Notes under the pieces: generated by a model
What the model was told of the DNA's origin: nothing
Databases searched by the model: none
What the model saw: only the letters and a program-made list of their open reading frames with translations
Source: Planctomycetota bacterium
Lineage (GTDB): Bacteria; Planctomycetota; Planctomycetia; Planctomycetales; Planctomycetaceae
NCBI GenBank assembly: GCA_003670925.1
Contig: QWQG01000187.1
Span: 1 to 49,021 of the forward strand
Reading direction: 5' to 3'
DNA: 49,021 nucleotides
In this document: positions 23,435-44,570 of the stretch, in pieces
How the letters are laid out: each line of letters begins with the position of its first letter
Position numbering within the stretch: position 1 is the first letter of the stretch
Translations under genes and position numbers: made by a program

Positions 23435-24229
23435 TCACCACGCCGTCCACCCACCGTCGACCAGCAGATTCTGACCGGTCACATAACTTCCCGCATCGCT
23501 GACCAGCAGCAGCAAAGGCCCCTTCAGTTCATGTGGTTCTCCCATGCGGCCTGCCGGACTTTTGACTTTTAGACGCTCCACCATCTGTGACGGAGCCTTC
23601 TCAGATGGAAACGGGCCGGGGCTGAGGCAATTCACCCGGACATTGTCCTTCGCCCAATAGACGGCCAGATGTCGCGTCATGTGCACAATCCCCCCCTTGA
23701 GCGTATGATATTGTACAGGACTCGCGGCACAGATTCCTTCGTAAGCATCGGGGTATGAACCGACCACTCCATACATCGACCCGATCATCACGATCGATCC
23801 CGGCACGCTTCGGCTGACAACATGATCACGCAAGCGACGCGCTAGCAGAAAATAACCGGTCGCATTCTGCAAATCCTTATTGAATGCCTCCGCCGTCACG
23901 TTTGTCAGATCGAGCGCGTGGCCCTGTTGACCATTATTGATTAAAATATCCACCCGTCCGGCCGCACTGACTGCCGCGTCAAAACCTTCGTTCAGGGACG
24001 ATTCGTTCAGATGATCAAGAGCCACAGCGCGGTGGATCACGCCCCACGGGGATGGCAATGCATCAGCCACACTTTGAGCTCGATTTTGCTCTCGACTTCC
24101 AATCACAACGAGGGCGCCAGCTTCGGCAAGTGCGCGTGACAACGCTTGGCCCAAATAGCCGGAACCGCCGGTGATGAGGGCGACGCGACCAGTCAAATCA
24201 AAAAGTTTTTGAATTGTAGGTTCCTGCAT
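23435..24229 (-). CDS. Short-chain dehydrogenase/reductase
   Basis: A 264-residue classical SDR that interconverts a hydroxyl and a carbonyl using NAD(P). Motifs: TGxxxGxG as ITGGSGYLGQ, NNGQ for the NNAG site, the catalytic Ser in MIGSMYG, YHTLK (Tyr-x-x-x-Lys), and a C-terminal GQNLLVDGGW. Its ATG shares a base with the stop of the upstream aminotransferase gene (TGATG), strong evidence for translational coupling; the longer reading frame (to 24286) overlaps that gene and is rejected. It is the last of the five tightly packed genes. Its substrate is likely a compound handled by the same operon. Confidence 0.92.
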   Translation of the reverse strand: MQEPTIQKLFDLTGRVALITGGSGYLGQALSRALAEAGALVVIGSREQNRAQSVADALPSPWGVIHRAVALDHLNESSLNEGFDAAVSAAGRVDILINNGQQGHALDLTNVTAEAFNKDLQNATGYFLLARRLRDHVVSRSVPGSIVMIGSMYGVVGSYPDAYEGICAASPVQYHTLKGGIVHMTRHLAVYWAKDNVRVNCLSPGPFPSEKAPSQMVERLKVKSPAGRMGEPHELKGPLLLLVSDAGSYVTGQNLLVDGGWTAW

Positions 24230-25152
24230 CACGTCATCTGCCGTTGAGCCTGTGCCACGATGTCCATGCCGACCAGTGCGCTCCATGCCGCCAGTAAGCG
24301 ATTCGTCACGGGACCAACTTTCCCGTCACCTACAGGCAAACCGTTAAACTTCGTCGCGGGCATGATGCAATATGGCGTGCTGGTGAAGAAGACCTCATCT
24401 GCCGTGTAGAAGTCGTAGACCTGCAGGCGAGCTTCCCGAATGGGGATACCGATCTTGTCGGCAAGTTCCAACGCAGTCCGGCGACTGATCCCAGCGAGAC
24501 AATTCTCAGTTGTCGGTGTCACGAGCTCGCCGTCTATGACCGCAAAAAGATTGCCGCCTTTGTTCTCGGAAACATAGCCGTCCACATCCAGAATGACACA
24601 TTGCGCGTCGGGGTCCATCAGCCGTGCTTCTGTATCCGCCAGAGTGTAAAAGAGCCGGCTGCGATTCTTAATGCGTGCATCTAGTGACTGAGCGGGTACA
24701 GCCCGACTCATCGATGTCACTGCATGACAGCCCTCGGTATAGTACCTAGCCCAACCACGCAGATCCATGTGATTAGTGAAAATCATGACAGTTGCGGCGT
24801 TGGTCTGCGATGAGCTGGGCCCGGGCTTCATTAAACCCCGTGAGATATTGTGGACGATCCAGCAGTCATCGTCGGAGCCCATCCTAGAAAGATTGACATC
24901 AAGGACATCTTGGGTGATCCTCTTCAGTTCACCCAGTGAGAGACCCGGATCAACACGACTGACTTTGAGCGACCGGTAGAGACGGGTGAGATGTTCGTCG
25001 AGTCGAAATGGCAGATGAAGAAACGTCCGCGTGGACTCGGTAAGGCTGTCGCCAAGCATGACCGCACTGTCAAAAATCGAAATCTTCGCCTCGGATTCCG
25101 GCACGATTTTTCCGGAAAGATAGACCTGGCGCTGTGGAACTGTGCTCTCCAT
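24229..25152 (-). CDS. Class IV aminotransferase (branched-chain/D-amino-acid type)
   Basis: A 307-residue PLP enzyme of fold type IV, which moves amino groups between keto acids and amino acids. The Schiff-base Lys is the one in DARIKNRSRLFYTLAD, followed by the cofactor phosphate and ring contacts in VSENKGGNLF and GISRRTALELA. These match branched-chain or D-alanine aminotransferases and aminodeoxychorismate lyase; the true activity cannot be separated by sequence alone. It is preceded by GGGAG before the ATG, lies 30 bases after the deacylase stop, and its stop overlaps the start of the next SDR. It belongs to the aldolase operon. Confidence 0.92.
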   Translation of the reverse strand: MESTVPQRQVYLSGKIVPESEAKISIFDSAVMLGDSLTESTRTFLHLPFRLDEHLTRLYRSLKVSRVDPGLSLGELKRITQDVLDVNLSRMGSDDDCWIVHNISRGLMKPGPSSSQTNAATVMIFTNHMDLRGWARYYTEGCHAVTSMSRAVPAQSLDARIKNRSRLFYTLADTEARLMDPDAQCVILDVDGYVSENKGGNLFAVIDGELVTPTTENCLAGISRRTALELADKIGIPIREARLQVYDFYTADEVFFTSTPYCIMPATKFNGLPVGDGKVGPVTNRLLAAWSALVGMDIVAQAQRQMT

Positions 25153-25182: not shown

Positions 25183-26091
25183 TTACAACCCCAGCACAAC
25201 CCCGACCGATTCGCCCGCATGAACGCAGGGAAATGTTCGCAGTACGAGCACGATACCCGACTGAGTCGCCTTGACCACCACTGGCGGGCTGCCGTCGACG
25301 GGATAAATCGTACCGAGCGGATCGCTAGCATGTACAGCGTCGCCAAGCTTTACGTGCGTTTCGAAATGTCCCGTGACGGGAGACGGATTGCAAACCTGCA
25401 TATGGCCCGCCTGCGGATGAACATCTTCCACGACATGTGCGATTCGACTGCTGGGCCGAGCCCGTTCAAGCATCCCCAATTCAGACATCACATTCAGGCA
25501 GCCATCGACATAGGCTTCGATCCCCGCTGGATCACATCTGGCGGCACCTAGGTACTCGCAATAAATCGCCGGAATGTTTGCATCCCGCGCCACCGAGAGT
25601 GACCGCCCCTCAAGTGCGGCCGATGTTCCCCAGATAACGGGCAGATTGAAGGCCCGCGCCATCCGCCGTTGTGTTTCTAGCACACTCGGCGTCGGGTGCA
25701 GCATATACCCAGCCAGCGGATAGACGCACATCTCCGTGCCGCCAGTGTGCAGATCAATGTAGTAGTCAGCGCTGCGAATTGCTTCACTGAGGGCCCACGC
25801 GGTCTGTTCGGTGATGCTGCCATCTGAGCGACCTGGACAGGTCCGCGCAAGGTCTAATCCGTCGTCACCGCAGCGGTGGCCGCGGAGAAATGCCGATTCA
25901 TTAACGATTGGAATCAGCGTGATTGTCCCTCGAAAACTCGATTCAGCCCCAGCATGCTGCTCAAAGAAAATCACCAACCGGCGAATCGCCGCGATCGGCT
26001 CAAACTCGTCACCATGCACGCAACCAGTGATTAACAAGCGTGGACCATTGAGCTGCGAACGAAATTCAAATCCCCTGAGCCGCAGCGTCAT
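25183..26091 (-). CDS. Succinylglutamate desuccinylase/aspartoacylase-like deacylase
   Basis: A 302-residue zinc hydrolase of the AstE/AspA group, which removes acyl groups from N-acyl amino acids. The zinc ligands are seen in CVHGDEFEP (His-x-x-Glu) and the second His in YYIDLHTGG; IYCEYLG holds a candidate catalytic Glu. The C-terminal part (from about residue 220) is a beta-rich lid with VHPQAGHMQVCNPSPVTG. Its ATG overlaps the upstream SDR stop (ATGA). An extended reading frame to 26253 lies inside that SDR and is rejected. DoeB, the ectoine pathway deacetylase, is in this family, but nothing here specifically points to ectoine. The substrate is probably an N-acylated intermediate of the operon. 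Confidence 0.88.
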   Translation of the reverse strand: MTLRLRGFEFRSQLNGPRLLITGCVHGDEFEPIAAIRRLVIFFEQHAGAESSFRGTITLIPIVNESAFLRGHRCGDDGLDLARTCPGRSDGSITEQTAWALSEAIRSADYYIDLHTGGTEMCVYPLAGYMLHPTPSVLETQRRMARAFNLPVIWGTSAALEGRSLSVARDANIPAIYCEYLGAARCDPAGIEAYVDGCLNVMSELGMLERARPSSRIAHVVEDVHPQAGHMQVCNPSPVTGHFETHVKLGDAVHASDPLGTIYPVDGSPPVVVKATQSGIVLVLRTFPCVHAGESVGVVLGL

Positions 26092-26888
26092 TTTTTTACT
26101 TCCGTCAACGAAATAATCGATTCGGGGCGGCAATCCTTGAATCGGAAGCAACCGTCTACGGGCAACACGGTCCCCGTAATGTAGTCCGCCTCGTCTGACA
26201 CAAGAAACGCTGCCGCGTTGCCGATGTCTTCCGGTAATCCAAGCCGCCCCCAAGGTAACCGCCGCCCTTCGTTAGCGATCGTTTCTGCGGAAAAAGCGAG
26301 GTGTTCGCCTGGCGTATCGATCCAGCCTGGCTCGATCGCATTCACGTTGATGCGGTAAGGTGCCAGTTCAACCGCGATCGATCTCGTCAAATGATTGAGA
26401 CCAGCCTTGGCCGCTCCATACGCAGCACACAGACTAATGGGCATCTCTGCCTGCACGCTCGAGACAAACAAGATTTTCCCTCCACCACCGCGCGCAACCA
26501 TATGCCGACCCACCAGTTGGCTCATGTGAAAACCGCTTGTCAGCGTTCCTGTGATTGTGCGTTCAAATTCTTCAGGCGGATATTCAAGAAACGCGCAACG
26601 GCGACTGTAAGCCGGATTGCTTACAAGGATGTCGATTCTTGCAAACAAGGCGAGGGCTGCCGTCAATAACTCTTCACAGCCCAATCGAGAAAACACGTCT
26701 GCCTCGATCGCGTAACAGGTGCGTCCGAGTGACCGAATCTCAGAAACCGTCGCTTCAAGGTCCGCACTGCCGGGGCGATCATTGATGAGGATGTCCGCTC
26801 CGCAGCGTGCGAGTTGCACGGCGCAGCCTTTCCCTATTCCCCGACCACCTCCCGTGATAAGTGCGACTTTACCCGTTAGGTTTATCAC
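26088..26888 (-). CDS. Short-chain dehydrogenase/reductase (FabG-like)
   Basis: A 266-residue classical SDR with TGxxxGxG (ITGGGRGIGKG), an Asn-rich site in LVSNPAYS replacing NNAG, catalytic Ser in VSSVQAE, YGAAK and a C-terminal ITGTVLPVDGC. It starts with GTG at 26888, overlapping the TGA stop of the aldolase gene by four bases (GTGA), and its own stop overlaps the next ATG. This makes it the second of a coupled run. Its closest relatives include sugar-alcohol and hydroxy-acid dehydrogenases, but specificity cannot be stated. The protein ends with a longer C-terminal tail than usual. Confidence 0.92.
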   Translation of the reverse strand: MINLTGKVALITGGGRGIGKGCAVQLARCGADILINDRPGSADLEATVSEIRSLGRTCYAIEADVFSRLGCEELLTAALALFARIDILVSNPAYSRRCAFLEYPPEEFERTITGTLTSGFHMSQLVGRHMVARGGGGKILFVSSVQAEMPISLCAAYGAAKAGLNHLTRSIAVELAPYRINVNAIEPGWIDTPGEHLAFSAETIANEGRRLPWGRLGLPEDIGNAAAFLVSDEADYITGTVLPVDGCFRFKDCRPESIISLTEVKK

Positions 26889-27661
26889 GGCGACTCCTGT
26901 CCGCTGCTTTCAAACGCTGCAGCACAGCTTTTGAGCATATTCATGACGGCGCCGAATTCGCCACCGTGATTCAGTAATTGGCCTCCCTGTTGCTGGCGTT
27001 GTTTCATGATCTCTGGAGTCCCGACCGGCGCGCCCCATGCTTTGCCATGTCGCTTGCAGGCGTTCGCCACGCGGTCGTAAGCGGACTCCAATGTGCCTTG
27101 ACTCGGGTCTTGCTTCATCCGCAGTCCGAGATCACCTGGCCCTATGAATAAACCATCCACTCCCGGAACAGATGCAATTTCATCTATGTTCTGGATGGCT
27201 TGCAAAGTCTCTATTTGGACCACGAGAAACGTCTCTTCATTTGCTTCCCTGACGAAGGCATCGCCGTCACAGACGTAGAAATCAGCGTCCAGTCCCGCCC
27301 CGTCAAGCCCGCGGTCACCCACTGGAGGAAACTTCACCGCATCAACTAGCATGCGGGCTTTTTCAGCAGTGTTGACATGCGGAATCATTAACCCTGCCGC
27401 GCCATCCTCGAGATAGCGATAAAGTCGCGTTTTTTCCAGCGTCGCTGGCCGCACCATGATATCGATGTCATGCAGGTGCGCAAAAGCCAAGAGAGCCTGA
27501 ACATCACGATCAGAAAAATTTCGGTGTTCAAGGTCCAGCCAGATGCAGTCGAAGCCAAAGTGGGCTGCCTGCTTGACAAAGAAGGGCATGTAATGTCCAA
27601 GGCAACACATCCGGACCGTCTGGTTGTTACGAATCCGGGCGAGCGTCTTACTTTTTCTCAT
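26885..27661 (-). CDS. HpcH/HpaI-type aldolase
   Basis: A 258-residue TIM-barrel aldolase of the HpcH/HpaI (2-dehydro-3-deoxy-glucarate aldolase-like) family, which cleaves or builds 4-hydroxy-2-keto acids from pyruvate and an aldehyde with a divalent metal. Motifs: FDCIWLDLEHRNF at the start of the barrel, MVRPATLEKTRLYRYLEDGA, with the PHVNTAEKA stretch, the catalytic-type VQIETLQAI (acidic metal ligand), and DGLFIGPGDLGL with the second metal ligand Asp. The start at 27661 follows AGGA; a longer frame adds 18 residues with no family match. It is the first gene of the five-gene run and its stop overlaps the SDR start. The product may be a deoxy-keto sugar acid. Confidence 0.9.
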   Translation of the reverse strand: MRKSKTLARIRNNQTVRMCCLGHYMPFFVKQAAHFGFDCIWLDLEHRNFSDRDVQALLAFAHLHDIDIMVRPATLEKTRLYRYLEDGAAGLMIPHVNTAEKARMLVDAVKFPPVGDRGLDGAGLDADFYVCDGDAFVREANEETFLVVQIETLQAIQNIDEIASVPGVDGLFIGPGDLGLRMKQDPSQGTLESAYDRVANACKRHGKAWGAPVGTPEIMKQRQQQGGQLLNHGGEFGAVMNMLKSCAAAFESSGQESP

Positions 27662-27862
27662 AGTGTGAATGGTCCTGAAGATTTTTGAATTGCACAACAA
27701 CTCGTGCGACGTCAACGTTTGAGTTTAAGTTCCCGTAGGTTTCTGTCCATTGCAGGAGCCGTCCTTCTGATAGTTCACCCTTGAGACGCATCCAAAAACT
27801 CTTCCATCTGACGAGCCCGAAAATGATTATTTGCAAAATAGCAGATGGTCATCGAAATGATT

Positions 27863-33599: not shown

Positions 33600-34709
33600 A
33601 TGAATTCAGGTATTTGGCGATTTTCAAAATGGCTCGATCCAGTACCAACCGCAGCACGCATGACGCTCGGCGAGGGAAGCACGCCGATTGTTCGATCTCG
33701 ACGCCTAGGACTTTCAGTTGGCCTAAAAAACCTGTTCTTTAAGTTGGAATTTGCGAACCCTAGCGGGTCGTACAAGGATCGTTTCGCCTGTGCGGCAATC
33801 TCAGACATGGTCGCATGTGGTAAGACTGAGTGCATCGCCACGTCGAGTGGAAATACGGGCGCGGCGCTTGCTGCGTATTGTGCGCTGGCAGGAATCTCGT
33901 GCGAGATCGCTATTGTGGAGGGCGCACCCGAAGGAAAGCTGAAGCAAATGTTGGCTTATGGTGCCAAACTGTTTCGCGTCCGCGGATTTGGAGTTGATAG
34001 CCTGTTGTCCCAGCAGGTCGTCGAGTGCCTTATAAAATTAAGTGCCCGGCCGCAGGCGCAGATGCAGATCAGCGCGTTCGCTTATAGCCCGGTTGGCATG
34101 AGCGGCGTAAAAAGCCTAAGTCATGAACTTGTTGAGCAAGCAACGGCCATCGATCGCAGAGCATGGGATCACGTCTTCTGTATGGCGGGCGGCGGCGGCC
34201 TGACGTTGGCCGTCTCACTGGGTTTCGAACAACTTTACGCGGCAGGGGAATTGTCCGTATTGCCGCGCGTCGAATGCGTGCAACCGGAGGGTAACAATAC
34301 CATTTCAGGTCCGTTGCGGGCTGGACTGAATCTGGCGCAAGCAGTGCAATGTTCCAGCCGGATTAGTGGCCTGCAGGTGCCTCAGGTCATTGATGGCAAT
34401 GAAGTGATCGCCGCCTGTCGCCGAAACGGTGGTAACGGACATCTTGTCGAAGATCACTTCGTCTGGGAAACTCAATCACGTCTCGCGCGCGAAGAAGGAA
34501 TCTTCGCTGAACCTGCAGGCTCAACTGCCGTCGCCGGCGCGTTACAGGCAGCAAGAGCAGGAGATCTCGATCCAGAGGCGAACATCGTCTGCCTGATCAC
34601 TGGCTCGGCGTTCAAAGATCCTCCATCATTGGACGCCATGGTGCAGCACACATCAGCGCCGATGATCGAGCTTCAGGATCTCCAACGCCGGGTGTCCGAG
34701 ACTTGTTGA
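33600..34709 (+). CDS. Threonine synthase/dehydratase-like PLP enzyme
   Basis: A 369-residue fold-type-II PLP enzyme. LGEGSTPIVRS is the usual beginning of threonine synthase-like proteins; the PLP Lys is in NPSGSYKDRF; SSGNTGAALAAYCALAG binds the cofactor ring; GGGGLTLAVSLG is the phosphate-binding loop; and the tail is FAEPAGSTAVAGALQAA. The family makes threonine from phosphohomoserine or eliminates/replaces groups at the beta position of amino acids, with 2-keto acid products in the dehydratase group. Primary housekeeping ThrC is possible but its location here suggests a specialised role. AGGAG sits about 8 bases before the ATG. Confidence 0.88.
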   Translation: MNSGIWRFSKWLDPVPTAARMTLGEGSTPIVRSRRLGLSVGLKNLFFKLEFANPSGSYKDRFACAAISDMVACGKTECIATSSGNTGAALAAYCALAGISCEIAIVEGAPEGKLKQMLAYGAKLFRVRGFGVDSLLSQQVVECLIKLSARPQAQMQISAFAYSPVGMSGVKSLSHELVEQATAIDRRAWDHVFCMAGGGGLTLAVSLGFEQLYAAGELSVLPRVECVQPEGNNTISGPLRAGLNLAQAVQCSSRISGLQVPQVIDGNEVIAACRRNGGNGHLVEDHFVWETQSRLAREEGIFAEPAGSTAVAGALQAARAGDLDPEANIVCLITGSAFKDPPSLDAMVQHTSAPMIELQDLQRRVSETC

Positions 34710-37959: not shown

Positions 37960-39009
37960 TCAGTATCTGGCTGTTGCGCTGGCAATCCGCCATACGCCGC
38001 GATTGTTTTCAGACGTCCCGTCACAGGCTTCGTAAAACATGCGATAGCGACAAGGCTCGCCCTCGAGTTGTGGCAGACAGATTACGCACATTTCCGAACA
38101 TTTCACAGAGTCGTAGCCGCTAGGGCCGGGAGATACGACTGGCTTTGAGTCCTTGTTCCACAGTAAGCCATCGTCCGAGACCGCCCGCAAAATATAAGCT
38201 CGATTCGGCTGGCTGTATCCAGCGTAGTACATCACATAACTGCCACCTGCAATGCAAAAGATTTCAGGCGCGAACGCCGCGTGTGAATCGAAGGCTTGGT
38301 CCTGAGCAATCCGCACGCCTGGATCTGGATGAAACAGAAGGCCACCATCGTTCGATTCGGCGCTCACAATCCCTCGGCCGCGATCGTAACAATACAGCCG
38401 ACATCTTCCACCACTCAGGCACACGATCCGAGGTGCCGAGTAGTTGTGACCTTCGGCTTCCAATCGCGTGCCGAGTTCTGGTGTCCACACGAGTCCGCCG
38501 TCCAACGACACGGCGCTGCGGATCGAATTCGTGACCGCCTGGGAACCAGAGCAGCACTCGTAATACATGCGCAGTCGCCCGCCGTCACCCACAGGGACAA
38601 CTTCGGAAGAAACAACGCGGAAATTGCCGGCACCGCCCGCCTGCGGCGACAATCGGACACCCGGTTCCGGAATCCAAATGTCGCCGTCCACAGAAAACGC
38701 ACTCAGGATGCGTGTCGTCGAGTTGTCGTAGTCGTTAGCCCCGACGGGGAATCCGGCCCGCGGCAATATCTGTGAGTAGTACATCCGATAGCCGCCGTCC
38801 GGTAACGCAATCACGCGCGGGCCGACTGCACCGCAGACACCGGTCCGCGTGGCGTCCGGCGACCATCGCGCTTCTGGCAGTGGATTGACGTCCGCATCTG
38901 GCGGTGCTTCGATCGCCACCGTCGCATCTTTGTTCCATAAGCACCCGGGGTCTGTTGCCACGGTATGAACTAAAGGTGATGCTGCTTGTGATTTTGACAG
39001 GTCGATCAC
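37960..39009 (-). CDS. Cytosolic glycosidase-like five-bladed or BNR-type beta-propeller protein
   Basis: A 349-residue protein starting with GTG at 39009 (AAGGA upstream). Repeats of the form S.DG..W.P..G.RL are seen, such as SVDGDIWIPEPGVRLS, SLDGGLVWTPELGTRL and SNDGGLLFHPDPGVRI, a pattern shared by sialidase Asp-boxes and the GH32/43/62/68-like five-bladed propellers. YRMYYSQILPRAG and YVMYYAGYSQPNRAYILRA are typical of the latter. There is no signal peptide, unlike the other propeller at 21350, so it acts in the cytoplasm. It may be a glycosidase or simply a binding protein; catalytic carboxylates were not identified. Confidence 0.72.
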   Translation of the reverse strand: MIDLSKSQAASPLVHTVATDPGCLWNKDATVAIEAPPDADVNPLPEARWSPDATRTGVCGAVGPRVIALPDGGYRMYYSQILPRAGFPVGANDYDNSTTRILSAFSVDGDIWIPEPGVRLSPQAGGAGNFRVVSSEVVPVGDGGRLRMYYECCSGSQAVTNSIRSAVSLDGGLVWTPELGTRLEAEGHNYSAPRIVCLSGGRCRLYCYDRGRGIVSAESNDGGLLFHPDPGVRIAQDQAFDSHAAFAPEIFCIAGGSYVMYYAGYSQPNRAYILRAVSDDGLLWNKDSKPVVSPGPSGYDSVKCSEMCVICLPQLEGEPCRYRMFYEACDGTSENNRGVWRIASATARY

Positions 39010-39523: not shown

Positions 39524-40546
39524 ATGAGTGATCCGCACCAAGTCTTAATTGTTGGCGTCGGGTCCATTGGTGAACGCCATTTGCGTTGTTTTCAGGCAAC
39601 GGGGCGTGCCGAGGTGTCATTCGTTGAGACCAATGCTGCGCTCCGAGTCGCGATTTCCGAACGCTATGGTGTTTGTGGTTTTGCGGATCTTGACGCAGCG
39701 TTGGCTGATCAGGGCATTGGGCGACATCCAGCGGCTCGACGCATCACAGCAGCCGTCATCGCCACGCCCGCAAATCGACATCTAGAGATTGCTATCCGAC
39801 TAGCAGAAGCCGGCATCCATCTCCTGATTGAAAAGCCGCTCAGTACCAGCATCGACGGTGCCGACCTGCTGACACAAATTGTCCGCCAGCGTGGCCTCGT
39901 GGTTGGCGTGGCTTATGTTCTGCGCTGTTATCCCGCATTGGGAGCGATGCGGGCCGCCGTGTTGAGCGGGCAGTTCGGAAAGCCCGTCGAGATTGTGGCC
40001 GTCTGTGGTCAGCATTTTCCTACATACCGGCCCGCTTATCGTAACACGTACTACGTAGATCGTGCCACGGGAGGGGGCGCAATCCAAGATGCGCTGACGC
40101 ATGTTTTGAATGCCGGTGAATGGCTAGTCGGCCCGATCGAACGACTCGTCGCGGATGCCGCTCACCGCGTACTTGAGGGCGTGACCGTTGAAGACACGGC
40201 CCATGTGTTGACACGTCACGGAGATGTGCTTGGAAGCTATAGTCTGAACCAGCATCAAGCACCAAACGAAGTCACGGTCACCATTATCTGTCAAAGTGGC
40301 ACAGTCCGCTGGGAAACGCATGCTCAACGCTGGCGCTGGATGATCCACCCTGACGAGCTTTGGCATGACGAACCGCACGAAACTCAGCCCCGCGACGCCG
40401 CATTCGTGACGCAAGCCAATCGATTTCTCGATGCGGTTGCAGGCCACACCTCGTTGCTTTGCAGTCTGGCTGAGGGCGTGCAAACATTGCGCGTCAATCT
40501 GGCCGCACTGGCGAGTATTGAACAGGGATGCTGGCAAACACTTTAA
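39524..40546 (+). CDS. Gfo/Idh/MocA family oxidoreductase
   Basis: A 340-residue cytoplasmic NAD(P)-dependent oxidoreductase. GVGSIGERHLRCF is the Rossmann motif, HLLIEKPLSTS has the EKP Lys, and GGGAIQDALTHVLNAGEWL contains the second-domain acid/histidine pair. It heads the last plus-strand arm; the amidohydrolase/aminotransferase fusion begins 21 bases after its stop, so they are co-transcribed. This type is common beside aminotransferases in amino-sugar pathways, where it makes the keto group to be aminated; that is the simplest reading here. Confidence 0.94.
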   Translation: MSDPHQVLIVGVGSIGERHLRCFQATGRAEVSFVETNAALRVAISERYGVCGFADLDAALADQGIGRHPAARRITAAVIATPANRHLEIAIRLAEAGIHLLIEKPLSTSIDGADLLTQIVRQRGLVVGVAYVLRCYPALGAMRAAVLSGQFGKPVEIVAVCGQHFPTYRPAYRNTYYVDRATGGGAIQDALTHVLNAGEWLVGPIERLVADAAHRVLEGVTVEDTAHVLTRHGDVLGSYSLNQHQAPNEVTVTIICQSGTVRWETHAQRWRWMIHPDELWHDEPHETQPRDAAFVTQANRFLDAVAGHTSLLCSLAEGVQTLRVNLAALASIEQGCWQTL

Positions 40547-40567: not shown

Positions 40568-42931
40568 ATGTCGCCGTCTTTGAGAGACTTCTCGGCACAC
40601 GATCAGCAAATTTGGGATGAGGAACTCCAAGACTTCGTCCCAGATCGAGTGTTCGACGCTCATATTCACATGTTCCATCCTGAGCATGTGAAGGCAACTT
40701 CGCCGTCGTCGGCGACCCCGTGGAGTTTCGCGGACTTCACCACGTTGCAGGAATGGGCCGCGCGATTATACCCCGGTCGCGAAACACATTTTCTGGTACT
40801 GGGGACGCCGACGCTCGGAATTGACGTCGATTCTCACAACCACTGGTGCATCGAGCAGGTCAGACGAGATCCCCAATCGCGAATGAATCGCTTGGTGACT
40901 CCGGCGTGTCGCGTGCAGGACATTGCTGCCGACATCCGCGAGCGAGGGTTTAGCGGACTTAAACCGTACCGTTTGTTCTCCACCACGGGGGATATCGCAC
41001 AATGCCGCATTCACGAGTTTTTGCCCCACGCGCAATTGGAGTTAGCGAACGACATGGGACTGTGGGTCACGCTGCACCTGTCTCGTTTCCACGGTTGTGC
41101 TGACGATTTAAACCTAAACGATCTGCGGGATTTCACCAGCCGTCGTTACCCTCACATCAAATGGATTCTCGCCCATTGCGCTCGGAGTTTCACCTACTGG
41201 CCGATCCGTAAGGCCATCGACCAGCTCCGCGATCTGCCGAATATCTGGTACGACGTTTCGGCAGTGACTGACGTACGCCCGCTCATTACTTTGTTTTCAC
41301 GTGAAGATCGCCGCCGGATTTTGTATGGATCAGACGGCATTGACGCGACGTATTTTCATGGCCAGTACGCCGCAATGGGACGAGCTTGGCAGTCTGTAGA
41401 TAGCGGTCGCTTAAATCTGCAATTTCCCCATTGCGATGGCCGCCCAATTTTAGCGATCTATGAGCAATTACTCGCGATGAAGCATGCGGCAGAGATTGCC
41501 CAATGGTCTGCAGACGACATTCAGAATCTTTTTTGGAGAAACGCGGCCTCCGCGTTTCGTGTTCAGTTCGGTAATGAAGATCCTACCACTGTGTCGGCGA
41601 TCGGTGAGCAGACTCAGACGATGTACGCCCGAGCCAAACAGCTTATTCCTGGCGGAACGCAATTGCTCAGTAAGCGGCCGGAGATGTTCGCTCCCGGACT
41701 CTGGCCAGCCTACGCGCGTGAGGCACATGGTTGTGAAGTAACAGACCTTGATGGCCGTCGCTTCATCGATATGACTACATCGGGAATCGGTTCGTGTCTC
41801 CTGGGATACGCCGATCCGGATGTCACGGCAGCCGTTCAGCAACGTATTGCAAGGGGCTCAATGTCGACACTTAACGCCGCTGCGGAAGTTGAGCTAGCTG
41901 AACTCCTGATTGAACTGCACCCGTGGGCCGAGCAGGTGCGCTATGCGCGTTCTGGCGGTGAGTCCATGGCAATCGCCGTCCGTATCGCGCGAGCGGCAAC
42001 CGGTCGTGATAAGATTGCATTCTGTGGTTATCACGGATGGTCTGATTGGTATCTAGCGGCAAATGTGAATCCGGCTGGTGCTGCCGACAGTCTACAGGGA
42101 CACCTGTTACCGGGCTTGGCACCGGCAGGCGTACCGCGTGGTCTTGCCGGAACCGCATTGCCTTTTACTTACAACCGATTACATGAATTGGAGCAGATCG
42201 TAACCCAACACGGCAACGAACTTGCGGCGGTGGTGATGGAACCAACACGTTCGACCGATCCTGATACCGGCTTTCTCGAGGGCGTCCGCAAACTTTGTGA
42301 CCGTTGCGGTGCAGCACTGGTCTTTGACGAAATTTCGTCCGGTTGGCGAATGCATCTCGGCGGTGCCCATTTGAAATACGGTGTGCTGCCGGACGTTGCT
42401 GTGTTTGCCAAAGCCATCGGCAATGGTCACCCGATGGCCGCAATCATCGGCCGTCGTTGCATCATGGACGCTGCTCAAACGTCATTCATTAGCAGTACCT
42501 ACTGGACCGAGGGTGTTGGTCCGACTGCTGCGGTGGCGACCATCCGGAAACTGCGAGAAGTAAACATCGCAGCTCACACCAGTCACATCGGTGGCCTGAT
42601 GCGCGATGGCTGGAAGAGTCTCGGGCAACGACTGGGGGTGCCAGTCAAAGTCTCTGGTCACCCGGCCCTGCTGCATTTAAGTTTCGACCACGAACAAGCG
42701 GCTGCCCTAGGAACGCTACTGACAGCGCGGATGCTTGAACAAGGCTATCTTACCGGCAGCGGCTTCTACCCGAGCTTCGCCCATAAAAAACACCATCTCA
42801 GCCAATACCTGACTGCTATCGAACCGGTCTTCGTTGAACTTGCTGATGCCATCCGTCTTGGCGACGTGTTGCGCCGCCTACAGTCTATCGACGTTCCTGT
42901 ACGCCACACTGGCTTTGCCAGATTGACGTGA
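40568..42931 (+). CDS. Amidohydrolase fused to class III aminotransferase
   Basis: A 787-residue protein made of two enzymes. Residues 1-335 are an amidohydrolase-2-type TIM barrel: HxH at His32/His34 (FDAHIHMFHPE), GLKPYRLFSTTGD, WILAHCARS with His203, and LYGSDGIDATYF with Asp256, as in lactonases and ACMSD-like decarboxylases. After a linker, from about 352 (MYARAKQLIPGGTQLLS) to the end is a full-length class III aminotransferase like glutamate-1-semialdehyde aminomutase: SGGESMAIAVRIARAATG, VVMEPTRSTDP, ALVFDEISSGWRM, and PLP Lys615 in VFAKAIGNGHPM. The start follows GAGGAT; a TTG at 40553 is the alternative. The frame is continuous, with no stop between the halves. Two steps on one intermediate, or channelling, are plausible. 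Confidence 0.93.
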   Translation: MSPSLRDFSAHDQQIWDEELQDFVPDRVFDAHIHMFHPEHVKATSPSSATPWSFADFTTLQEWAARLYPGRETHFLVLGTPTLGIDVDSHNHWCIEQVRRDPQSRMNRLVTPACRVQDIAADIRERGFSGLKPYRLFSTTGDIAQCRIHEFLPHAQLELANDMGLWVTLHLSRFHGCADDLNLNDLRDFTSRRYPHIKWILAHCARSFTYWPIRKAIDQLRDLPNIWYDVSAVTDVRPLITLFSREDRRRILYGSDGIDATYFHGQYAAMGRAWQSVDSGRLNLQFPHCDGRPILAIYEQLLAMKHAAEIAQWSADDIQNLFWRNAASAFRVQFGNEDPTTVSAIGEQTQTMYARAKQLIPGGTQLLSKRPEMFAPGLWPAYAREAHGCEVTDLDGRRFIDMTTSGIGSCLLGYADPDVTAAVQQRIARGSMSTLNAAAEVELAELLIELHPWAEQVRYARSGGESMAIAVRIARAATGRDKIAFCGYHGWSDWYLAANVNPAGAADSLQGHLLPGLAPAGVPRGLAGTALPFTYNRLHELEQIVTQHGNELAAVVMEPTRSTDPDTGFLEGVRKLCDRCGAALVFDEISSGWRMHLGGAHLKYGVLPDVAVFAKAIGNGHPMAAIIGRRCIMDAAQTSFISSTYWTEGVGPTAAVATIRKLREVNIAAHTSHIGGLMRDGWKSLGQRLGVPVKVSGHPALLHLSFDHEQAAALGTLLTARMLEQGYLTGSGFYPSFAHKKHHLSQYLTAIEPVFVELADAIRLGDVLRRLQSIDVPVRHTGFARLT

Positions 42932-42940
42932 CGATCTTGA

Positions 42941-43504
42941 TCAGATTGCTCCTGCAGTTCCAGAATTGCAGGGTTCGCCACTCACGTTATCGATCGCACT
43001 GAGGTGTAGCCAGCAATCGGCCCATTGGCCAAAGTTTTCTTCGACGCTAATGCGAAGTCTTGTCAGACCGTGCTGGTGATTCAGCTTCAGCCGTGCAATG
43101 AGCGCATGCCCAATCCACTGGGCAATCAGTTCTGCGGTCGTGTTTTCAATTGGCAAGATCACACAGTCCTCGCGTGGAAACACCCAACGGCGGTCTTCAA
43201 ATCGAGCTGTGACTTCACGCTCATCGTCGGAAACTTCGAGCTGAATCATGGGGTGCCGTGCAGGCAAAAGTACCCGGTGATCCAGTTCCTGCACGAGCAA
43301 CTGAAGTCCATCGCGTAGAGCAATAAAATCAAACACATAGTGATTCTCGTCCAGTGGCCCTTGGATTTCTGCTTCGACACGCCAATTATGGCCGTGAATC
43401 CGCTCACAAATGCTGCGATTGAATGTAATAAAATGTGCGGCGCTGAAGACCAGCGTGTCCTTTGTGACGCGAACGCTCCAAGTATCGATCGAAGATATTG
43501 TCAT
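42941..43504 (-). CDS. 6-pyruvoyl-tetrahydropterin synthase-like protein
   Basis: A 187-residue pterin-family enzyme. The zinc and catalytic residues of the PTPS/QueD fold are seen: FSAAHF (first zinc His), ICERIHGHNW (catalytic-type Cys, then two His), YVFDF and LDHR in the middle, ENTTAELIAQWI, and VEENFGQWADCWL with the catalytic Glu. It is longer than QueD (about 120-140 residues) by a loop rich in basic and acidic residues. Its ATG shares one base with the upstream stop (TGATG), so it is translationally coupled to the CitG-like gene. Possible roles are in queuosine or in a modified folate/methanopterin cofactor; the pairing favours the latter. Confidence 0.9.
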   Translation of the reverse strand: MTISSIDTWSVRVTKDTLVFSAAHFITFNRSICERIHGHNWRVEAEIQGPLDENHYVFDFIALRDGLQLLVQELDHRVLLPARHPMIQLEVSDDEREVTARFEDRRWVFPREDCVILPIENTTAELIAQWIGHALIARLKLNHQHGLTRLRISVEENFGQWADCWLHLSAIDNVSGEPCNSGTAGAI

Positions 43505-44400
43505 CAGTCAGGTTTCCTTTTGAACCAATCCCCGGCGGGAATCAGTCCGCCATCACGCAGCGCGGCAAATAGAATCGCGGCGATAAAATCGGCAGTAGTA
43601 CCAGGGTTACGGCGATTGCCATCCTCACGAAGAAACGCGTCGAACTCAGCAAATTGTGGTGCTGCATGGTGCTGGATGGGCCAACCGCTGTCGAGCAGTT
43701 TTTGAGCCTTTTCGCGCACAACGTCAGACATCTGCTGGCCACACTTGCGGCCAATCAAGCTGTCACCGTAGGCAGCCAACAGACGCACGGCAAGCCATGA
43801 AATCTGCAGTGGCTGCGGTAAACCTATGGCACCAGTTTCTGTCAGCCAATCGAATCCACATGTCAGCACTTGCTCAAATCCGTTGGCGTACTGAGCCGCA
43901 ATCAGGTCGCGTTCCGCGGCGAACATCATACATTCCTGCAGGTTGCGGGTTGGTTCGTCATTAAGATCCTGCTCACAGGCTTTGCCTAACCCTGCTGGCT
44001 GAGCCATCCGAATGGCAGCATAAACCAAACGACTATCTGCCACGGTTGTCGACTCCAGCACTTTAAATATCCCCTCCGACAGCGGCCTGTCGCGAGGAAC
44101 TGTGGCCAGTGGCGCCAACAACAGAATAATCCCCAAGTTCGTATTGTGATTTACGACTTCACGAGTCGCCTGAACTGCTTTGAAAATCGTTTCGCCGAGC
44201 GACTGCTCACACGCGGTCGCAAGCACTGGCGCAATCGCCCGCGCTGACTTGAGATAGTCCACAATCGACGCATCCGCAAATCCATGCCCAGGAGCCACAT
44301 TGCCAGCTTTGGGGCTCATCACTTCCATTGCGCAGGCGACTTCAATAAGTTCCACCAGAGAAACAGGGCTACATGCCGTCGTAAAAGAGTTTGTCATCAT
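43504..44400 (-). CDS. CitG/MdcB-like triphosphoribosyl-dephospho-CoA synthase family protein
   Basis: A 298-residue protein with the fold of the CitG family, which joins ATP and dephospho-CoA for citrate lyase or malonate decarboxylase cofactors. Conserved patterns are SPKAGNVAPGHGFADA near the N-terminus (KxG loop), HNTNLGIILLLAPLA (the Asn-rich motif) and a C-terminal RRNPGTTADFIAAILF. Neither citrate lyase nor malonate decarboxylase genes are nearby, so classical CitG function is doubtful. From memory, such proteins appear in clusters for tetrahydromethanopterin C1 metabolism in methylotrophs and planctomycetes. The start is at 44400 (MMTNSF) or 44397; the frame extends upstream to 44457. 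It is followed with an overlap by the PTPS-like gene. Confidence 0.8.
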   Translation of the reverse strand: MMTNSFTTACSPVSLVELIEVACAMEVMSPKAGNVAPGHGFADASIVDYLKSARAIAPVLATACEQSLGETIFKAVQATREVVNHNTNLGIILLLAPLATVPRDRPLSEGIFKVLESTTVADSRLVYAAIRMAQPAGLGKACEQDLNDEPTRNLQECMMFAAERDLIAAQYANGFEQVLTCGFDWLTETGAIGLPQPLQISWLAVRLLAAYGDSLIGRKCGQQMSDVVREKAQKLLDSGWPIQHHAAPQFAEFDAFLREDGNRRNPGTTADFIAAILFAALRDGGLIPAGDWFKRKPD

Positions 44401-44570
44401 TTGTTTTTCTGAGGCGAAGTCGTTCCGCCACTCGTATTCTTCGGCCCGAACGAGCAACCAAGACGCTAGGTTGTAGTTGCCGTCAGCCCAGTGTCATGCA
44501 TCCCTTGTGTCCACACCAGACCATCTGCGGCGGCGCAGTCCCCGAGGGACACACGTCCCGAAATCTAATG

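Follow-up and report, generated by a model that had tools for sequence, protein, structure and literature searches.

The stretch of planctomycete DNA analysed here (the window; 49,021 nucleotides) carries on its forward strand a single open reading frame that runs from an ATG at 40568 to a stop codon at 42929-42931. The start at 40568 is well supported, since gaGGA, a plausible ribosome-binding site, stands 8 nt before the ATG. The reading frame, its relatives and their alignment identify the gene (40568..42931, + strand) as a fusion of an amidohydrolase-2 enzyme and a class III aminotransferase, 787 residues in length. Pfam, alignments, a structural model and a fold search define the N-terminal half as an Amidohydro_2 TIM barrel (residues 1-332; 40568..41563), of which residues ~20-332 form the domain proper. 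The model and the alignment place a linker of 14 residues at 333-346 (41564..41605), and Pfam, NCBIfam, fold and alignment evidence assigns residues 347-787 (41606..42928) to a class III aminotransferase resembling glutamate-1-semialdehyde (GSA) aminomutase. The AlphaFold model of the full chain has a mean pLDDT of 86 and two confident domains whose relative placement is unreliable (pTM 0.75); its confidence is lowest at residues 338-343, within the linker. An earlier, sequence-only reading of the window described two complete enzymes in one frame joined by a linker of 15-20 residues. The Pfam domains do lie in that order, with H32/H34, H203, D256 and K615 all present, and the linker estimate is about right. 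A separate start between residues 335 and 352 was also looked for. The sole in-frame ATG near the domain junction encodes M352, which is not conserved among the relatives, and we therefore rejected an internal start for a separate aminotransferase.

The N-terminal half matches Pfam Amidohydro_2 (PF04909) over residues 86-331 (2.5e-14), and its score of 54.2 bits against a gathering cut-off of 26.4 makes it a member of that family. The HxH motif, two further histidines and the strand-8 aspartate are all present (H32, H34, H170, H203 and D256); of these, H170 is an expected metal ligand not named in the sequence-only reading. These five residues are invariant in 42 aligned fusions drawn from three phyla, and the metal-site residues are invariant across 36 family barrels from fused and separate genes, as are K132, Y134, R206, D229 and E299. 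Because the 50 matches listed for the full chain in a fold search were all aminotransferases, we modelled and searched the barrel alone. This model (pLDDT 92) has a TIM-barrel fold and matches 2f6k with a Z score of 21.8 over 252 residues. The TIM barrel and metal-site residues are held in common with amidohydrolase-2 enzymes such as 2-pyrone-4,6-dicarboxylate lactonase, the isoorotate, 5-carboxyvanillate and ACMS decarboxylases, LigY and LigJ, which align at Z 19-22 over ~250 residues, yet are only 11-17% identical to the fusion barrel. Lactonases and non-oxidative decarboxylases are the closest to the modelled barrel in fold, and the lactonase/decarboxylase type suggested by the sequence-only reading is borne out by Pfam and by the fold matches. 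Within that type, the comparisons do not tell lactonase, decarboxylase, C-C hydrolase and hydratase chemistry apart, and no NCBIfam family matched the barrel at E <= 1e-4.

The C-terminal half is a class III aminotransferase by its match to Pfam Aminotran_3 (PF00202; residues 382-753, 2.2e-46, 158.8 against 30.5 bits), and the PLP residues D587 and K615, the latter being the PLP lysine, are invariant in the 42 aligned fusions. Among solved proteins, its best relatives and best matches in fold are GSA aminomutases. HemL/GSAM structures (5i92, 6w80) share with it the fold, the PLP lysine and aspartate and the YHG.SD loop, and a basic residue (K369/R370) lies near the position of the GSAM carboxylate-binding arginine. 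This likeness is what would favour reading the C-terminal half as a housekeeping glutamate-1-semialdehyde aminomutase with an accessory domain. However, identity by fold alignment is 27-29%, the half is fused to a barrel, and it scores 198.8 bits with the hemL model (TIGR00713) against an equivalog cut-off of 527.3, whereas a true HemL encoded elsewhere in the same genome scores 619.3 bits. We rejected the housekeeping identity on these grounds and regard it as scarcely credible. PRK06209-type aminotransferases (NF004856; 231.6 bits against an equivalog cut-off of 486) and the guanitoxin-pathway transaminase GntE (NF041362; 211.8 against 525) are among the top-scoring NCBIfam models, and the C-terminal half is a member of neither. 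Class III aminotransferases also lie inside larger proteins in PigE, of prodigiosin biosynthesis, and in the AMT domain of mycosubtilin synthase (6kfm/6kfu), but their partner domains, unlike that of the fusion, are not amidohydrolases; PLP domains embedded in PKS/NRPS proteins are covered in PMC3870968. As the sequence-only reading had supposed, no characterised enzyme with the present domain order was found in the PDB, NCBIfam or the open-access papers searched. Likewise, no description of an amidohydrolase–aminotransferase fusion was found in the literature searched, which was mostly open-access. We consider the protein a new combination of two known kinds of enzyme: both halves come from known superfamilies, and what is new to us is the combination, its recurrence and the exchange of hydrolase halves described below.

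Scanning one genome for each species turned up 232 relatives, from which the best 80 were kept. Together with the window, these comprise 47 loci with the fused form (46 of them fetched public loci), 10 in which the two halves are encoded by separate genes, and 24 with the aminotransferase alone. The fused form is found in Planctomycetota, Verrucomicrobiota and Lentisphaerota; the fusion is recurrent, and is neither rare nor specific to the window. The window contig comes from an assembly of 259 contigs, and one relative, L036, which we counted among the separate genes, is itself a fusion broken by frameshift, so an artefact that joined two genes had to be considered. Since the 46 fetched loci, which span many assemblies and three phyla, show the same single-frame arrangement with a variable linker, we rejected a local assembly error, and the chance that the frame is an artefact is negligible. 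The broken gene in L036 (7836-10359) is of the window type, and its frameshift(s) reflect either real decay or sequencing error. Within the window's own genus the distribution is patchy, with one or two copies in some genomes and none in many; one genome (G001) has two copies, on contigs C48 and C93, with 88% and 85% identity to the copy in the window. The separate halves take several arrangements. In a Lentisphaerae locus (L050) the barrel gene precedes the aminotransferase gene by 33 bp, and in L109 (genome G018) the order is reversed, with 14 bp between the reading frames. A PhyH gene lies between the two in L098 and L099, and a Gfo/Idh gene in the Opitutaceae loci L084 and L086. In L052 (7941-10513), a window-type barrel (77% identical) stands alone, its gene convergent with that of a distant class III aminotransferase (44%); this locus may represent a fusion that lost its own C-terminal half.

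Among 16 window-type fusions, pN/pS is ~0.17 for the barrel and ~0.19 for the aminotransferase. Given these low ratios and the invariant catalytic residues, both halves are under purifying selection and have been kept as enzymes. The linker is poorly conserved, with a mean identity of 0.31 to window-type relatives, and its length between fixed points is 17-18 residues in Gimesia-type fusions, 22 in the Verrucomicrobia type and 23-49 in the window type.

The two halves have different histories. Aminotransferases of window-type and Gimesia-type fusions are 65-70% identical, whereas their barrels are only ~28% identical and fall in different deep groups of the barrel tree. The window-type barrel groups there with the stand-alone barrels L096/L097 and with the L098 and L099 barrels, which stand beside a more distant aminotransferase. 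A single clade of all fused barrels was rejected (AU p 2e-40, about 1e-40), as was a single clade of the planctomycete fused barrels (p 0.0008); the groups were named after the trees were seen, which weakens these p-values, and the trees contain long branches. Because the aminotransferases are so much more alike than the hydrolases, and the barrels do not form one clade, either fusion or replacement of the hydrolase half must have happened on more than one occasion. In the aminotransferase tree the window type is nested among Gimesia-type fusions (starred branch), although the test does not reject a single clade of the Gimesia type (p 0.22). Both readings stand, and this tree suggests replacement of the hydrolase half rather than renewed fusion.

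Upstream of the fusion by 21 bp, on the same strand, lies a gene for a Gfo/Idh/MocA oxidoreductase (39524..40546, +), which probably shares a transcript with it. Counted raw at fusion and relative loci, as are all the recurrences given here, this neighbour is present in 10 of 20 window-type loci and two of seven loci of a distant aminotransferase clade, beside the fusion and its separated relatives alike. Further upstream, on the reverse strand, lie genes for a second SDR dehydrogenase (23435..24286, with homologues at 67-84% near fusion relatives), a class IV aminotransferase (24229..25152, with a homologue after the Verrucomicrobia fusion L066 and another in L112), an AstE/AspA-like deacylase (25183..26253, recurring in L029 at 67%, L109 at 66% and L112 at 55%), an SDR dehydrogenase (26088..26888, recurring in L029) and an HpcH/HpaI-type aldolase (26885..27715, near the fusion in 11 of 20 window-type loci), the end of whose gene is overlapped by the SDR gene just named. 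A PALP-fold, threonine-synthase-like enzyme is encoded at 33600..34709 (+) and recurs in L112 (55%) and L101 (61%). The gene at 37960..39009 (-) encodes a repeat protein that matches no Pfam family, looks propeller-like by eye only, and has homologues in six of 20 window-type loci. Just past the fusion, on the opposite strand, PTPS-family and CitG-family genes lie end to end (42941-44457, -), a pair of the kind that occurs in tetrahydromethanopterin biosynthesis of planctomycetes. Another contig of the window genome (C175; 8789-11142 of locus L122) carries a sodium:solute symporter gene with a PhyH gene behind it; the two show 74-79% identity to the copies that flank fusions in relatives.

Genes for Gfo/Idh, SDR, HpcH/HpaI, PhyH dioxygenase, AstE-like, PALP and class IV aminotransferase proteins, sodium:solute symporters and GntR-like regulators recur near the fusion and near its separate relatives in other genera; the GntR label, like the DegT and surface-glycan labels below, was read by eye from sequence. 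The Gfo/Idh neighbour singled out by the sequence-only reading stands, as do the two conserved enzymes in one chain, but the gene set is wider than that reading had it, since PhyH, HpcH/HpaI, AstE-like, SDR and symporter genes recur as well. Its interpretation is thus supported in part; its proposals that the barrel might open or trim an intermediate for use by the aminotransferase, and that Gfo/Idh might supply the keto group, are hypotheses. Neighbours are shared with lineages as remote as L112, L109 and L098, whose aminotransferases are only ~44-45% identical to the window's. L112 is the clearest case: the AstE-like, PALP, Gfo/Idh and class IV aminotransferase genes of the window all have homologues there, as does PhyH. 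The neighbours differ between loci, and few of them are found at Gimesia-type and L062-type fusions. Stand-alone aminotransferases of the same clade in Patescibacteria and other bacteria (L076, L079, L085 and L091) lie beside DegT-like and surface-glycan-like genes, a context that suggests biosynthetic use of the enzyme there.

Conservation, repeated fusion and shared neighbours lead us to favour, with somewhat better than even confidence, a bifunctional enzyme for two linked steps by which an amino or keto (sugar) acid is catabolised; the direct succession of the two steps, the catabolic direction and the class of substrate are the inferred parts of this proposal. The N-terminal barrel, with a single metal ion, would carry out a hydrolysis (of a lactone, or of an amide or N-acyl group) or a non-oxidative decarboxylation, and the C-terminal PLP enzyme would act on a neighbouring intermediate of the same route, transferring an amino group or moving it. 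The substrate of this route would probably be an imported amino or keto (sugar) acid. Fusion would keep the two steps close together and at equal dose. That the halves act together is indicated by the repeated fusion of the same two families, while the symporter, the GntR-like regulators and the aldolases suggest catabolism. The differences in neighbours between loci count against the proposal, as does, for a catabolic role, the context of the stand-alone aminotransferases, if it is indeed biosynthetic. Fusion might instead set only equal dose or co-localisation, the halves belonging to one regulon and serving separate branches with no common intermediate. Such an arrangement would fit a linker that is flexible and poorly conserved, and a hydrolase half that could be exchanged for one ~28% identical while the aminotransferase stayed close; just these two families are, however, paired again and again, fused or adjacent, in three phyla, and we think it rather unlikely.

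A special case of the catabolic proposal is a breakdown pathway whose substrate is a sialic-acid-like (nonulosonic) acid or a related amino sugar acid that is N-acylated, and in which import by the symporter would be followed by deacylation, aldol cleavage to give a 2-oxo acid, and transamination of the amino-sugar remnant. The best solved match of the symporter among SSS structures is 5nv9, annotated 'putative sodium:solute symporter', which we take to be the sialic acid transporter SiaT; few SSS proteins have been solved, though, and the match carries little weight. Also in favour of this pathway are BNR_2 (sialidase-like) and DHDPS-family genes near the separate pairs of Opitutaceae and, close to the planctomycete forms, the HpcH/HpaI aldolase and AstE-like deacylase, but the DHDPS-family scores fall far under the NanA cut-offs and the planctomycete repeat proteins match no sialidase model, which makes it improbable. 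We also tried catabolism of ectoine or hydroxyectoine, suggested by the EutE-like deacylase, PALP and PhyH genes, and rejected it: the deacylase reaches only 78 of the 402.7 bits required by the EutE/DoeB model, and such a route would leave the HpcH/HpaI aldolase without a place.

Returning to the bifunctional catabolic enzyme, the fact that these two families have been fused repeatedly is strong evidence, at the genomic level, of joint action. More tentatively, the fusion could mark a previously undescribed pathway in Planctomycetota, Verrucomicrobiota and Lentisphaerota that catabolises an abundant (sugar) acid, either N-acylated or containing an amino group. Here, an oxygenase, a deacylase, dehydrogenases and an aldolase would feed a hydrolase/transaminase that had its hydrolase half exchanged in evolution, possibly altering the substrate range while transamination stays. 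The fusion gives a handle on two enzyme subfamilies that lack an assigned function and on a pathway found repeatedly among aquatic PVC bacteria, and the exchange of its hydrolase halves provides a natural means of testing whether the substrate range depends on the partner.
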